Shown: positions 3-15,872 of the stretch, in pieces
Position numbering within the stretch: position 1 is the first letter of the stretch
Layout: each line of letters starts with the position of its first letter
Assembly: GCA_019245455.1 (NCBI GenBank)
Contig: JAFARM010000349.1
Location: 1 to 16,761 of the forward strand
DNA length: 16,761 nt
Direction of reading: 5' to 3'
Source of the DNA: Sphingomonadaceae bacterium
Lineage (GTDB): Bacteria; Pseudomonadota; Alphaproteobacteria; Sphingomonadales; Sphingomonadaceae
Program-made: the position numbers and the translations under genes
The notes under the pieces: model-generated
What the model was told of the DNA's origin: nothing
The model's database searches: none
What the model saw: the letters and a program-made list of their open reading frames with translations, nothing else

Positions 3-899
3 CTAGGCGCTCAGCACCTGCGGCCGGTCGTAGTGACCGAGCGGGTCGACGTGGATCAGGATCTCCGCGCCGGGGAACGCCGACGCCACATCGGCCTCGA
101 TCTCGTCGACGATGGCGTGGGCGCGCGCGACGCTCATCTCGGGGTCGAGCCAGACGTGGAACTGAATGAAGTCGGTGACGCCGCTCGACCGGGTCCTGAG
201 CTCGTGGACGCCGCCCGCCTGCGGGTGGCGGGCGACGACGGCGAGCAGGCGGCGGCGCTTGTCGTCGGGCCACTCGCGGTCCATCAGCATATCGATCGCC
301 GCCCGCGCCGAGGTCACCGCGCCCCAGGCGAGATAGCCGGCGATCAGGAGCCCGAACAGCGCGTCGGCCCCGTGCAGCCCGGCCCAGACGTCGAGCGCCA
401 GCGCGACGATGACGCCGAGGTTGAGGAGCAGGTCGGATTCGTAATGGACGCGGTCGGTGCTGATCGCGATCGACTGCGTCTGGCGGACGACATGACGCTG
501 ATAGGCGACGAGCGCCAGCGTCAGGGCGGCGGCGACCACCGATACGCCGACGCCAACCTCGGCACGGCGCGGGACCGCCGGGTTGCCGAACTCGGCGACG
601 GCGCGGACGGCGATGGCGACGGCCGAACCGAGGATGACGAGCGTCTGCATCAGCGCGGCGATGGCCTCCGCCTTGCCATGGCCGAAGCGGTGGTCGTCGT
701 CGGCGGGCTGTGCCGCCAGCCACACCGCGTAGAGCGTGACGAGGCTCGACAGCAGGTCGAGCCCGGTGTCGGCCAGGCTGCCGAGCACCGCGACCGACCC
801 CGTCGCGCGCGCGGCATAGGCCTTGAGGAACAGAAGCAGCGTCGCCGACGCGACCGACGCCGCCGCCGCCCGGCGGGTGAGATCGCCGCGGTCGGTCAC
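3..899 (-). CDS. Cation diffusion facilitator (CDF) family metal transporter, FieF-like
   Basis: Inner-membrane proton-coupled exporter of divalent cations (Zn, Fe, Mn, Co or Cd; the substrate cannot be read from sequence). The 298-residue protein has the usual CDF plan: six hydrophobic segments between about residues 14 and 198, then a cytoplasmic C-terminal domain (about 205-298). The metal site of FieF-type members is visible as D44 and D48 in SLADTGLD on the second helix, and H152 and D156 in HYESD on the fifth. The loop motif HRFGHGKAE (70-78) is also typical. The start is GTG at 899-897; the G-rich end of the adjoining repeat (GGGAGGG on the minus strand) gives a Shine-Dalgarno a few bases upstream. 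Length is normal for the family, and the stop codon lies at the window edge (5-3). It follows pdxH on the same strand but is separated by a 289-base repeat cluster, so co-transcription is doubtful. Confidence 0.93.
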   Translation of the reverse strand: MTDRGDLTRRAAAASVASATLLLFLKAYAARATGSVAVLGSLADTGLDLLSSLVTLYAVWLAAQPADDDHRFGHGKAEAIAALMQTLVILGSAVAIAVRAVAEFGNPAVPRRAEVGVGVSVVAAALTLALVAYQRHVVRQTQSIAISTDRVHYESDLLLNLGVIVALALDVWAGLHGADALFGLLIAGYLAWGAVTSARAAIDMLMDREWPDDKRRRLLAVVARHPQAGGVHELRTRSSGVTDFIQFHVWLDPEMSVARAHAIVDEIEADVASAFPGAEILIHVDPLGHYDRPQVLSA

Positions 900-904
900 C
901 TTTT

Positions 905-959
905 CCCTCCCCCCCGGTGAGCGCAGCGAACCGAGAGCGGGGAGGGCAGGGGTGGGGGC
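905..959 (+). repeat. Palindromic repeat unit A (type II)
   Basis: A unit of about 55 bases: a C-rich lead (CCCTCCCCCCC), an imperfect hairpin around a GCA centre (about 915-933), then AGAGCGGGGAGGG and a G-rich tail GGGGTGGGGGC. Closely related units occur at 993-1046, 1083-1144, 11133-11189 and 11214-11273. Its outer end abuts the start of the CDF gene on the minus strand and supplies that gene's G-rich Shine-Dalgarno. Confidence 0.85.
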
Positions 960-992
960 ACCCGCCAGCCAACCGAAGGGCGGCTCTGCTTA

Positions 993-1046
993 CTCCCTCC
1001 CCCCCTGGCGCGCAGCGCCAGAGAGCGAGGGCTGGGGTGGGGGAGG
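993..1046 (+). repeat. Palindromic repeat unit B (type II)
   Basis: Second direct copy of the unit at 905-959, with the same C-rich lead and G-rich tail. The central hairpin is a perfect TGGCGC-GCA-GCGCCA (1006-1020). Its inner tail faces unit C across about 36 bases, so B and C form an inverted pair while A is an extra direct copy. Confidence 0.85.
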
Positions 1047-1082
1047 TCGGGCGAGGGGCAGCGGCTTAGATAGAGCGCGCGT

Positions 1083-1144
1083 TCCCCCCCCCCGGCCCTC
1101 CCCGCTCTCCGTTCGCTGCGCTCACGGGGGGGGAGGGAGAAGGA
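1083..1144 (-). repeat. Palindromic repeat unit C (type II), inverted
   Basis: Reverse-complement copy of units A and B, ending in GGGGGGGGAGGGAGAAGG near the pdxH stop. It contains a run of ten C (1084-1093) and a run of eight G. The whole stretch from 900 to 1188 holds these three units plus short unique connecting sequence, and I see no gene in it. Confidence 0.85.
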
Positions 1145-4732: not shown

Positions 4733-5539
4733 ATGCCGGGGTTGATGGCGGGGAAGCGCGGGCTGATCATGGGGGTGGCGAACGATCGCAGCCTCGCCTG
4801 GGGCATCGCCCAGGCCGTCGCGCGCGAAGGCGGCGAGATCGCCTTCAGCTACCAGGGGGAGGCGCTTGAGAAGCGCGTGCGGCCGCTGGCGGCGTCGCTG
4901 GGCGGCGAGCCGTTCCTGATCGAGTGCGACGTGTCCGAGCCGGCGTCGATCGACCGCGCCTTCGACAAGCTGGGCGAACACTGGCCGCGGATCGACTTCC
5001 TCGTTCATGCGATCGGCTTTTCCGACAAGAATGAGCTGCGCGGCCGCTATGTCGACACCAGCCCCGAGAACTTTGCGCTGACGATGAACATCAGTGTGTT
5101 CAGCTTCACCGCCGTCGCCAAGCGCGCGCTGGCGATGATGCCCGATGGCGGCGCGCTGCTGACGCTCAGCTATTACGGGGCCGAAAAGGTCATCCCGCAC
5201 TACAACGTCATGGGCGTGGCCAAGGCGGCGCTGGAGACGAGCGTCCGCTACCTCGCCATGGACCTGGGGCCGGACAAGGTGCGGGTCAACGCGATCAGCG
5301 CCGGGCCGATCAAGACGCTGGCGGCGAGCGGCATCGGCGACTTCCGCTACATCATGCGCTGGAACGAGTATAACAGCCCGCTCCGGCGCAACGTCACCAT
5401 CGATGACGTTGGCGGGGCCGGCGTCTACCTGCTGAGCGACCTGTCGGCAGGCGTGACCGGCGAGGTCCACCACGTCGACGCCGGCTACAACGTCATCGGC
5501 ATGAAAGCGGAGGACGCTCCGGATATCAGCGTGGCGTGA
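4733..5539 (+). CDS. fabI: Enoyl-[acyl-carrier-protein] reductase (NADH) FabI
   Basis: Last reduction step of each type II fatty-acid elongation cycle: trans-2-enoyl-ACP to acyl-ACP with NADH, in the cytoplasm; the family is the target of triclosan. The 268-residue short-chain-dehydrogenase-like protein has the FabI nucleotide motif GVANDRSLAWGIA (14-26) and the FabI-type active site Y157-x6-K164 (YNVMGVAK), plus the upstream Y147/Y148. DKVRVNAISAGPIKTLAASGI (181-201) is the conserved substrate-loop region. Start ATG 4733 directly follows the previous stop; MPGLMAGKRGLIMG fits the family N-terminus, and the internal ATG at 4745 is less likely. The stop codon TGA (5537-5539) is followed without any gap by the left arm of the DUF559 repeat cassette. 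aroC lies beyond the cassette. Confidence 0.97.
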   Translation: MPGLMAGKRGLIMGVANDRSLAWGIAQAVAREGGEIAFSYQGEALEKRVRPLAASLGGEPFLIECDVSEPASIDRAFDKLGEHWPRIDFLVHAIGFSDKNELRGRYVDTSPENFALTMNISVFSFTAVAKRALAMMPDGGALLTLSYYGAEKVIPHYNVMGVAKAALETSVRYLAMDLGPDKVRVNAISAGPIKTLAASGIGDFRYIMRWNEYNSPLRRNVTIDDVGGAGVYLLSDLSAGVTGEVHHVDAGYNVIGMKAEDAPDISVA

Positions 5540-5598
5540 CTCCTCTCCCTTGCGGGGAGAGGAAGGGGCCCGCGCCGCAGGCGCGGAAAGGTGAGGGG
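5540..5598 (+). repeat. Left arm of the DUF559 cassette (type I palindromic unit)
   Basis: Hairpin 1 has 9-base arms TCCTCTCCC/GGGAGAGGA (5541-5549 with 5555-5563). Hairpin 2 is CCGCGCC-GCA-GGCGCGG (5570-5586). The tail AAAGGTGAGGGG (5587-5598) runs right up to the DUF559 ATG and can act as its Shine-Dalgarno. The unit begins at the base after the fabI stop. Confidence 0.88.
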
Positions 5599-6006
5599 AT
5601 GCGGCTTCCTGCGGGATCAGAAGCGCTCGAGCGTGTGCGAGCGCTCCGGCGCGCTCAGACGCCGGCCGAGGCGGCGCTGTGGCGCGAGCTTCGCGGCCGC
5701 CGGCTCGGCGGGTTCAAGTTCCGGCGACAAGTCGATCTCCGGCCGTTCATCGTCGATTTCGCCTGCCTCGAAGCAAAGCTGGTTGTCGAAGCGGACGGCC
5801 AGCATACGGACGCAGCCGATTATGATCAGCGCCGCACGGCTTGGCTGGAGCAGCACGGATACCGCGTCTTGCGCTTCTGGAACCACGAAGTCCTCGGTAA
5901 ACGCTCCGGCGTCATGGCGACGATCCTGGCGGCACTAACCCTCACCTTCCCACCCGGCTGCGCCGGGCGGGCCCCTTCCTCTCCCTGTCAGGGAGAGGAG
6001 CCTTGA
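5599..6006 (+). CDS. DUF559 endonuclease-domain protein (Vsr-like fold)
   Basis: Small protein of the DUF559 family, related to very-short-patch-repair-like nucleases of the PD-(D/E)XK fold; no specific substrate is known to me. From ATG 5599 it has 135 residues. The domain covers about 13-112 with the family signature: [41 protein letters not shown] (D53, E64 and Q68-H69 are candidate catalytic residues), YDQRR, and [12 protein letters not shown]. An in-frame GTG at 5536 overlaps the fabI stop and would add 21 residues translated from the left repeat; ATG 5599 is preferred because the domain starts after it and AAAGG lies seven bases upstream. The last 21 or so residues are encoded by the right repeat arm, and the stop overlaps the aroC TTG (TTGA). 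It is not an aromatic or fatty-acid gene, so it looks inserted in the operon. Confidence 0.8.
5939..6000 (-). repeat. Right arm of the DUF559 cassette (inverted type I unit)
   Basis: Reverse-complement partner of the left arm. Hairpin 1 has the same 9-base arms (5977-5985 with 5991-5999) but a different loop. Hairpin 2 is CCCGGC-TGC-GCCGGG (5953-5967): the stem differs from the left arm with both strands changed together, while the GCA loop (TGC on this strand) is kept. GGGAGAGGAG at its outer end precedes the aroC TTG and serves as its likely ribosome binding site. Confidence 0.88.
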
Positions 6007-7073
6007 GTCACAACAGCTTCGGCCACGCCTTCCGCTTCACCACCTGGGGGGAGAGCCACGGGCCGGCGATCGGCGCGATCGTCGACGGGTGCCCGCCGGA
6101 CCTGAGCCTGAGCGAGGCGGACGTCCAGCCGTGGCTCGACCGGCGGCGGCCGGGCACGTCGCGCTTCACCACGCAGCGGCAGGAGCCCGATCAGGTCCGC
6201 ATCCTGTCGGGCGTGTACGAGGGGCGCACCACGGGCACGCCGATCCACCTGATGATCGACAACGTCGACGCGCGATCGAAGGACTATGCGGAGGTCGCGC
6301 GCGCCTATCGGCCTGGCCATGCCGATTATGCCTATGACGCCAAATACGGCCTGCGTGACCCTCGCGGCGGCGGGCGGTCCTCCGCGCGCGAGACGGCGAG
6401 CCGCGTGGCGGCGGGGGCAGTGGCCCGGCTGGTCATCCCGGAGGTGAGCATCCGCGCCTTTCTCGTCGAACTCGGCGGCGACGCCATCGACCGCGCGGCG
6501 TTCGACGACGGCGAGATCGACCGCAACGCCTTCTTCTGTCCCGACGCCGCCGCCGCCGCCCGGTGGGAGATCGCCCTCGACGCGGCCCGCAAGGCGGGAT
6601 CGTCGTTGGGCGCGGTGGTCGAATGCGTCGCCGAAGGCGTGCCGGCGGGATGGGGATCGCCGCTCTACGCCAAGCTCGACGGGCAGCTCGCATCGGCAAT
6701 GATGAGCATCAACGCCGTCAAGGGCCTCGAGATCGGCGACGGTTTCGCCGCGGCGCGGCTGCGGGGCGAGGATAACGCCGACGCCATGGCGCCGGGGCCG
6801 GACGGCCGCCCCCGTTTCACCAGCAATCATGCCGGCGGCGTCGCCGGCGGCATCGCCACGGGCCAGCCGGTCGTGGTGCGCCTGGCGCTGAAGCCGACCA
6901 GCTCGATCCTGACGCCGGTACCGACGATCACCCGTGACGGGGCCGCGACCGAAATCGTCACCAAGGGTCGCCACGACCCCTGCGTCGGCATCCGCGCCGC
7001 GCCGGTCGCCGAAGCGATGATGGCGCTGGTTCTGGCCGACGCCAAGCTGATGCACCGCGCGCAGTGCGGCTGA
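6003..7073 (+). CDS. aroC: Chorismate synthase AroC
   Basis: FMN-requiring lyase that makes chorismate from 5-enolpyruvylshikimate-3-phosphate, the last step of the shikimate pathway to aromatic amino acids, folate and quinones. The 356-residue protein carries all three family signatures: [14 protein letters not shown] (16-29), [20 protein letters not shown] in the first half, and [19 protein letters not shown] near residue 280. The start is an unusual TTG at 6003-6005: [19 protein letters not shown] is the normal N-terminus and no ATG or GTG fits. GGGAG (5991-5995) seven bases upstream, inside the right arm of the repeat cassette, is the likely Shine-Dalgarno. The TTG overlaps the DUF559 stop (TTGA), so translation may be coupled to that gene. 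It is last in the J-domain/YihY/fabI run. Confidence 0.96.
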
Positions 7074-11109: not shown

Positions 11110-11132
11110 CGAAGAGGAAGCCGGTAGGACAC

Positions 11133-11189
11133 GTCTCCCTCCCCCCCCGGCGCGCAGCGCCAGAGAGCGGGGAGGGCCGGGGTGGGGGC
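11133..11189 (+). repeat. Palindromic repeat unit D (type II)
   Basis: Near copy of the units at 905-1046: C-rich lead (TCTCCCTCCCC), hairpin GGCGC-GCA-GCGCC (11149-11161), AGAGCGGGGAGGG, and tail CCGGGGTGGGGGC. It forms an inverted pair with unit E across 24 bases. Confidence 0.88.
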
Positions 11190-11213
11190 AGGCTCGGGCC
11201 GCCGTCGCCGCCA

Positions 11214-11273
11214 GCCCCCACCCCGACCCTCCCCGCTCTCCATTCGCTGCGCTCACGGGGGGGGAGGGAGAAG
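11214..11273 (-). repeat. Palindromic repeat unit E (type II), inverted
   Basis: Reverse-complement partner of unit D, nearly identical to unit C at 1083-1144 (both contain GCTCTCC, then a TTCGCTGCGCTCACGGGG core). Its outer end lies about six bases from the serA stop. Confidence 0.88.
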
Positions 11274-12872: not shown

Positions 12873-12910
12873 CTCCCCTCCCGCGAGCGGGAGGGGCCGG
12901 GGGTGGGAGG
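12873..12910 (+). repeat. Palindromic repeat unit F (serC-serA gap)
   Basis: CTCCCCTCCCGC-GA-GCGGGAGGGG hairpin followed by a G-rich tail CCGGGGGTGGGAGGT. It is shorter than the type II units because the GCA hairpin is missing. It pairs with an inverted copy at 12949-12984 across 38 bases. Confidence 0.85.
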
Positions 12911-12948
12911 TCGCGGTCGAGCGGAAGCGGCGGTTCGCGGACGGACTG

Positions 12949-12984
12949 CCCACCCCCGACCCCTCCCGCAAGCGGAGGGGAGGG
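12949..12984 (-). repeat. Palindromic repeat unit G (serC-serA gap), inverted
   Basis: Reverse-complement partner of unit F (CCCACCCCCGACCCCTCCCG onward). It ends at the base before the serC stop codon. The pair may act as an attenuating hairpin between serC and serA in the mRNA. Confidence 0.85.
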
Positions 12985-15703: not shown

Positions 15704-15760
15704 CCCTCTCCCGCTTGCGGGAGAGGCGACTCGCGCGCCAGCGCGGCGGGTGAGGGTGTG
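15704..15760 (+). repeat. Palindromic repeat unit H (type I)
   Basis: Same order as the left arm of the DUF559 cassette: hairpin CTCTCCCGC-TT-GCGGGAGAG, second hairpin CGCGC-GCCA-GCGCG (15732-15745), and tail GGGTGAGGGTGTG. It begins at the base after the LOG stop codon. Confidence 0.88.
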
Positions 15761-15802
15761 CCTCAAGCCTTCGAGCGGCGACGGCAGCCTAGAACGATCG
15801 TT

Positions 15803-15865
15803 TACACCCTCACCCGGGCCGCGCCTGCAGGCGCGTCTCTCGCCTTTCCCGCAGGCGGGAGAGGG
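15803..15865 (-). repeat. Palindromic repeat unit I (type I), inverted
   Basis: Reverse-complement partner of unit H, with ACACCCTCACCC at the inner end, hairpin CGCGCC-TGCA-GGCGCG and an outer hairpin ending GGGAGAGGG. The 42-base core between H and I contains no gene. It ends seven bases before the stop of the convergent cytochrome gene, so the pair may serve as a bidirectional terminator. Confidence 0.88.
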
Positions 15866-15872
15866 ATGAGCC

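Follow-up and report, generated by a model that had tools for sequence, protein, structure and literature searches.

Bacterial genomes commonly contain interspersed palindromes, and many types are without a known enzyme. RAYT is the Y1 HUH transposase of the GTAG-tagged REPs, and REPIN/RAYT systems combine short palindromes arranged as inverted pairs with one small nuclease gene that has cognate units on both sides; gene-less pairs are scattered through the same genome, and enzyme and unit types match. All of these traits recur in the DUF559 element described here, although gene-less pairs elsewhere accompany subtypes other than its own. The DUF559 system differs in its enzyme, which is PD-(D/E)XK (DUF559, PF04480) or, in a parallel system, GIY-YIG rather than HUH, and in having a CT-rich stem and a GGTGAGGG-like inner tag in place of GTAG. 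Because enzyme and tag differ, we do not count it as a REPIN/RAYT member, though it appears to work like one.

The seg and mob genes of T4 are free-standing homing endonuclease genes. Genes of this kind, such as that of I-Bth0305I, resemble the present elements in placing a Vsr-like or GIY-YIG nuclease between conserved genes and in the replacement of one nuclease by another at a single gap, but DUF559 elements have lineage-matched inverted palindromes and dispersed gene-less copies. With MITEs they share gene-less elements (about 115 or about 160 bases) that have inverted ends and occur in several copies; the differences are double-hairpin ends, no target-duplication signal and a partner gene that does not encode a DDE transposase.

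Two published observations bear on the enzymes. According to a study in cells of Caulobacter VsrA, this DUF559 protein is needed for the DNA damage response when a cytosine methyltransferase is missing and is interpreted as a mismatch-repair enzyme; the word 'palindrome' is absent from the main text of that study (PMC12907096). The fold and active-site pattern of Vsr and VsrA recur in the protein studied here, whereas DUF559 is here multicopy, lies in palindrome pairs and has no methyltransferase gene inside its element. For the CGTC-tagged REPs, Di Nocera et al. 2013 report that a dedicated transposase seems to be lacking and that these REPs flank no RAYT or IS200 gene (PMC3733652). In the open-licence literature we found no earlier description of DUF559 or GIY-YIG genes linked to REP-like palindromes. 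Since DUF559 lies between matched mirror-image repeats in many bacteria, it may be the missing enzyme of a common palindrome family.

Results

Architecture of the fabI–aroC element

The window is the whole analysed stretch of 16,761 nucleotides from a Sphingomonadaceae bacterium (GCA_019245455.1, contig JAFARM010000349.1). The original prediction placed two inverted double-hairpin units around one DUF559 gene at 5540-6000, between fabI and aroC, and arms, folding and Pfam all confirm this arrangement (Table 1). The ungapped inverted arms (5540-5578 and 5962-6000) span 39 nt with 87% complementarity, and the gapped arms of this locus, L001, cover 5540-5597 and 5939-6000. Read inwards, both units present hairpin 1, GGGGCCCG, hairpin 2 and GGTGAGGG. 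Both form double hairpins as single-stranded DNA (z -3.5 and -4.4), with none of 200 shuffles equally stable. The inverted-pair score is 32.5, as against a 99th percentile of 14.2 for 259 control small genes, one of which scores at least 18.

The enclosed gene, with ATG 5599 as its putative start codon, matches PF04480 with an E-value of 2.8e-38 (5599-6003) and 130.6 bits, the curated cut-off being 20.6. Its reading frame continues across the downstream unit, and its TGA stop (6004-6006) overlaps the aroC TTG start at 6003, which suggests translational coupling.

Table 1. Positions of the palindromic units, genes and inverted pairs of the window, with the GIY-YIG loci from other stretches
Feature	Position	Strand	Remarks
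Upstream palindromic unit	5540..5598	+	hairpin 1, GGGGCCCG, hairpin 2, GGTGAGGG; tag gene-facing
DUF559 (PD-(D/E)XK, Vsr-like) nuclease gene	5599..6006	+	135 aa; domain 5626-5937
Downstream palindromic unit	5939..6000	-	inverted copy of upstream unit
fabI, left neighbour of element	4733..5539	+	confirmed by Pfam and NCBIfam
aroC, right neighbour of element	6003..7073	+	TTG start; confirmed by Pfam and NCBIfam
Gene-less element, subtype A heterodimer	15704..15866	.	units best match paralogue L002
Gene-less inverted pair	12876..12980	.	first unit resembles L003 (23); second weakly (16, vs 14 for L002)
Inverted pair, 899-965 and 1077-1143	899..1143	.	resembles repeat beside paralogue L005
Inverted pair	11114..11273	.	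resembles repeat beside paralogue L005
GIY-YIG genes in second-class inverted palindromes	L092:6375-6810; L125 to L154		resemble CGTC REPs

Structure prediction for the enzyme

A structure model of the DUF559 protein (38 sequences) reached a mean pLDDT of 87. Foldseek matched it to 3hrl, a solved DUF559 protein (E 2e-9), to 3r3p (E 5e-5) and to Vsr (1cw0/1vsr, E 0.03). Judged by this model, I-Bth0305I, a homing endonuclease, is among the nearest solved folds, with Vsr matched more weakly. Residues E33, E73, D75 and H78 are invariant in the 38 aligned rows, and D62 is present in at least 90% of them; the predicted fold and these conserved acidic and histidine residues are those of a PD-(D/E)XK, Vsr-like protein. 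PADLOC returned no match, and we rejected a defence-system identity for the element.

RAYT was likewise rejected as the mover of the palindromes: the Y1 transposase (PF01797) has no match in the window's own genome, which is 95% complete, and Y1_Tnp matches occur in 21 of 119 Sphingomonadaceae relatives. This scarcity leaves no obvious other mover of the palindromes.

Generality of the architecture

DUF559 is present in 102 of the 119 Sphingomonadaceae genomes, with 273 matches and 0 to 10 per genome. The flank test of DUF559 genes that the original prediction proposed for Sphingomonadales was run in this family: 83 of 97 domains lie inside an inverted pair (score of at least 18, 260-base flanks; threshold chosen after the first control distribution was known), compared with a single one of the 259 small control genes taken from those stretches, these controls being longest-ORF picks and not annotated genes. 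The one control in a pair is itself a GIY-YIG nuclease gene (L092; Pfam E 3.7e-12). The 97 domains come from 94 stretches drawn from the 273 matches, mainly by E-value order and avoiding small contigs. Among twenty of the weakest matches listed from the same 273, 15 lie inside a pair, compared with 0 of 139 control intervals. A first control of 442 shifted intervals yielded five scores of at least 18, four at or over DUF559 genes (L022, L034) and one at L002. The tag faces inward in 55 of the pairs and outward in 2, and is ambiguous in 26.

The architecture extends well beyond the family. One locus per genome was taken across the class Alphaproteobacteria, with 18 of 29 DUF559 loci in a pair; a phylum search found pairs at 4 of 9 alphaproteobacterial and 9 of 15 non-alphaproteobacterial loci; and a scan of named genomes found them at 47 of 61 loci (64 less three at contig edges), with 2 of 330 control intervals positive. 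The pair-positive named records carry labels that include Marinimicrobia, Gastranaerophilales, Elusimicrobiota, Anaerolineae, Verrucomicrobiia and Omnitrophota, a list of phyla that is provisional because MAG contigs can be misassigned and several of the other-phyla loci are MAG contigs. In this respect the original prediction was too narrow: the architecture reaches beyond a single alphaproteobacterial family. Recurrent sites and sister genomes make all these DUF559 counts non-independent.

DUF559 homologues without flanking repeats, which had been named as evidence against the prediction, do occur in part: a detectable pair is absent at 14 of 97, 5 of 20, 11 of 29 and 14 of 61 loci of the respective sets. 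By eye, some of the 14 in Sphingomonadaceae sit amid mixed or nested palindromes. At Rhizobium/Rhizobiales loci L266, L267, L274 and L316 we observed long composite arms with extra hairpins.

Flanking repeats and protein lineage

Arm similarity and protein similarity are correlated (Mantel rho 0.20, above the maximum of 0.16 reached in 500 permutations). Paralogues of one genome rarely share arms (5 of 46 pairs), whereas similar proteins encoded in different genomes often do (111 of 186 pairs). Ten arm classes mapped on the domain tree (75 rows) require 16 changes; over 300 shuffles the mean is 45, and no shuffle needs fewer than 39. The insertion site also tracks the tree (57 rows; 19 changes, shuffles mean 41.8, minimum 36), so descent at a site accounts for part of the arm–protein signal. 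When pairs assigned to one site are set aside, arms are alike in 70% of 43 with a protein similarity of at least 0.6 and in 13% of 1521 with a similarity of 0.4-0.5. By these sequence comparisons, the flanking repeats track the protein lineage and not the host genome.

The number of DUF559 genes also correlates with the count of the hairpin pattern across the 119 genomes (Spearman rho 0.62), a correlation in which kinship is handled through same-genus contrasts alone: 15 of 23 such pairs are informative and 13 of these 15 agree with the trend. Counts are at most 3 in the 17 genomes without DUF559 and have a median of 12, rising to 113, in the 26 genomes with four or more. The counted hairpin is a single pattern that other unit subtypes would escape, and it is absent from 30 of 102 DUF559-bearing genomes, 20 of them among the 36 genomes that have just one DUF559 gene.

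Paralogues and gene-less elements in the window's genome

Five DUF559 genes are present in the genome. L001 to L004 are each enclosed by an inverted pair of units, and the four pairs differ in subtype; L005, near a contig end, is not bracketed, the sole inverted pair beside it being downstream. The hairpin pattern occurs at 49 sites, as against 1 for the reversed control, and exactly two pairs of neighbouring sites start 300-600 bases apart, both enclosing a DUF559 gene. The GGGGCCC subtype, to which L001 belongs, occurs at three genome sites at no more than one mismatch, two of which are the L001 arms and one of which lies elsewhere; gene-less pairs of this subtype were found neither in the window nor elsewhere in the genome.

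The gene-less pair originally reported at 15704-15865 is real, but it is not of the type that surrounds the gene at 5540-6000. Its units score 30 and 45 when compared with the unit of L002; the scores fall to 25 and 18 with that of L004 and to 14.5 and 13 with the 5540 unit, which rules out a common subtype with L001. It belongs with eleven other subtype A gene-less elements, and by eye two differing unit variants are joined in 12 of 12. Their hairpin-to-hairpin length is about 155-165 bases, with one longer through a nested insert, and their spacers are only partly alike between copies. Subtype B comprises six gene-less copies of about 110-120 bases. Gene-less elements of one subtype occupy unrelated genomic places. 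The L002 gene is flanked by two like units, unlike the subtype A gene-less elements (L214 to L224, 15704-15866).

Presence, absence and exchange at insertion sites

We compared thirty fabI loci, 18 of which have aroC within reach. The empty sites sought in the fabI–aroC gap exist: the two genes abut in five relatives (gap -1 to 8 bases; L041 to L044, L053) and others carry the element. Other DUF559-free gaps measure 12 to 30 bases in four cases, and 90, 104 and 601 bases in three. Six genomes of the window's genus divide into two with the DUF559 element, two with a single degenerate unit (84 and 87 bases, by eye) and two with unrelated sequence; the element also occurs in three further genomes (L014, L083, L091). 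A stable ancestral DUF559 gene, the other finding that would have told against the prediction, is not what the relatives compared show at fabI–aroC; at sites 4 and 6, one lineage does look vertically inherited.

At the carB site of another genus, one of 14 genomes has the element, and 12 others could be read across the junction. Of these, ten rejoin within 27 bases, at the very edge of the element in six and not until about 340 bases past it in four, and two hold unrelated sequence; neither DUF559 nor a CTCC..GGAG hairpin was found at the site in any of the 12. The yqeY–dnaG gap of the same 14 congeners holds one DUF559 lineage in six, another DUF559 with different arms in two, a GIY-YIG gene accompanied by palindromes of its own in three, neither gene nor unit in two and one degenerate hairpin in one, the states of G142, G148 and G149 coming from a single comparison. 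At comparable sites, the sequence comparisons indicate that gene and repeats are gained or lost together, three single degenerate units excepted.

Recurrent use of gaps is widespread, with 62 of the 97 DUF559 loci falling in 12 gene gaps; L003, from the window's own genome, falls in the recurrent yqeY–dnaG site. Nuclease elements recur in the same conserved-gene gaps across genera (for example L003, L017 and L104). We found no target duplication in 68 gene-bearing elements, whose longest flanking direct repeat averages 1.97, compared with 2.09 for shifted controls; the nearest empty sites are too diverged to define exact insertion boundaries.

The laboratory strain E. coli K-12 carries a lone unit of the same kind, not a pair, beside its DUF559 gene ycjD (L322, about 2190-2240, in the ycjD–fabI gap). 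This type of unit, which we take to be Box C, is matched in 5376 of the 5426 E. coli genomes searched, with a median of 19 places each at E up to 1, and ycjD itself was detected in 3365 of the 5426 (megablast). E. coli was set aside as a strain-level test of empty sites, as two strains without ycjD have an efflux operon beside fabI and offer no clean site. For the tusA–zntA stretch, 50 of the 60 matches listed align at full length, unit included.

Discussion

A proposed mobile element with its own nuclease

We favour, with a probability of roughly 0.6, the reading that 5540-6006 is an autonomous REP-like selfish element whose DUF559 protein is its own recognition and mobilising nuclease. The proposal that DUF559 is the mobility enzyme of the palindrome family holds as regards the tie: association, arm–lineage co-variation (cognacy), copy number and joint presence or absence strongly support a relation like that of RAYT to REPs. 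The mobilising activity itself is a proposal. Architecture, generality, gene–arm cognacy and the copy-number correlation, like joint presence or absence, the dispersed gene-less copies and the lack of a duplication signal, are results read from DNA sequence; recognition, cleavage, movement in trans, the repair route, co-transcription and decay are the steps that we propose in addition.

The inverted double-hairpin units would be the recognition ends, and the enclosed gene would encode the cognate nuclease. With its Vsr/I-Bth0305I fold, the DUF559 protein would recognise its own unit type and cut or nick at that unit or at the target. Cutting would lead to the copying or movement of its own element and, in trans, of gene-less pairs of the same subtype, and host replication or repair would finish the insertion without target duplication. 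The gaps in which elements settle would lie between housekeeping genes, which makes co-transcription of the nuclease with these genes probable, and an element could decay to a single unit.

Several observations count against this reading. The GGGGCCC subtype is nearly without other copies in its own genome. Some DUF559-bearing genomes are free of the counted hairpin, some loci lack a pair, spacers are only partly alike and target duplication is absent. Some sites look vertically inherited by sequence, and the insertion site also tracks the protein tree. Finally, VsrA, the one member for which we found a study in cells, has been read as a mismatch-repair enzyme, and E. coli ycjD has a single unit.

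The main rival is homing: the nuclease gene would invade existing pairs by cutting and by recombination between like units, and the palindromes would spread otherwise. The likeness to I-Bth0305I among the closest solved folds suits it, as do the exchange of different nuclease elements at one gap among 14 congeners (DUF559 6, other DUF559 2, GIY-YIG 3), the concentration of 62 of 97 loci in 12 recurrent gene gaps and the lone degenerate units at fabI–aroC in two congeners. We nevertheless hold it to be unlikely, if worth keeping in mind, since arms track the protein lineage even when pairs assigned to one site are set aside, the carB units are missing along with the gene in all 12 of the other congeners seen, and a Y1 transposase is without a match in the own genome and found in only 21 of 119 relatives.

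A second alternative is that DUF559 serves the cell as a mismatch-repair nuclease of the Vsr type, with the hairpins doing no more than insulate its transcript or end transcription. The reported requirement for VsrA in the DNA damage response without a cytosine methyltransferase (PMC12907096) is what speaks for it. A household role fits poorly with DUF559 copies that vary from 0 to 10 per genome, with arms that are lineage-specific and not generic, with other small genes that lack arms (1 of 259) and with hairpin numbers that track DUF559 numbers, and we give it little credence. That palindromes passively gather in loose intergenic DNA where DUF559 happens to reside is very improbable: several of the 14 exceptions do sit amid mixed or nested palindromes by eye, but controls from the same stretches score 1 of 259, 0 of 139 and 2 of 330, the tag faces inward in 55 cases against 2 (26 unclear) and arms co-vary with the protein.

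A parallel GIY-YIG system

The DUF559 architecture has a counterpart. Small GIY-YIG genes of Sphingomonadaceae lie within inverted palindromes of a different class at 22 of 30 loci. In the class at large, 10 of 24 small GIY-YIG genes are in pairs and 0 of 2 UvrC genes are, these 26 having been tested out of 29 with three contig-edge loci excluded. The two palindrome classes are distinct: a CT-rich stem is present in 80 of 83 DUF559 pairs and 0 of 21 GIY-YIG pairs, and a CGT/GTC-like outer tag in 17 of 21 GIY-YIG pairs (loose pattern) and 1 of 83 DUF559 pairs (narrower pattern).

Compared by eye with four published families of CGTC REPs, the palindromes at small GIY-YIG genes look alike (GTCATTCCCGCGAAGGCGGGAATCC and similar). 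They differ in enclosing a nuclease gene, the CGTC REPs being described as seemingly without a dedicated transposase (PMC3733652). Small GIY-YIG nucleases are possibly the missing enzyme of the CGTC REP superfamily.

We regard it as an even question whether bacterial interspersed palindromes in general are the offspring of nuclease-encoding elements, with RAYT (HUH) for GTAG REPs, DUF559 (PD-(D/E)XK) for the CCCTCTCCC/GGTGAGGG palindromes of many bacterial groups and small GIY-YIG nucleases for CGTC REPs. If so, three unrelated nuclease folds would have converged on one way of life. A nuclease matched to each palindrome class would make the origin of the palindromes testable and would give DUF559, a domain of unknown function, a candidate role. 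In the window's own genome, one gene-less element of the DUF559 type (L224, contig C140) has a CGTC-like palindrome pair nested within its spacer.
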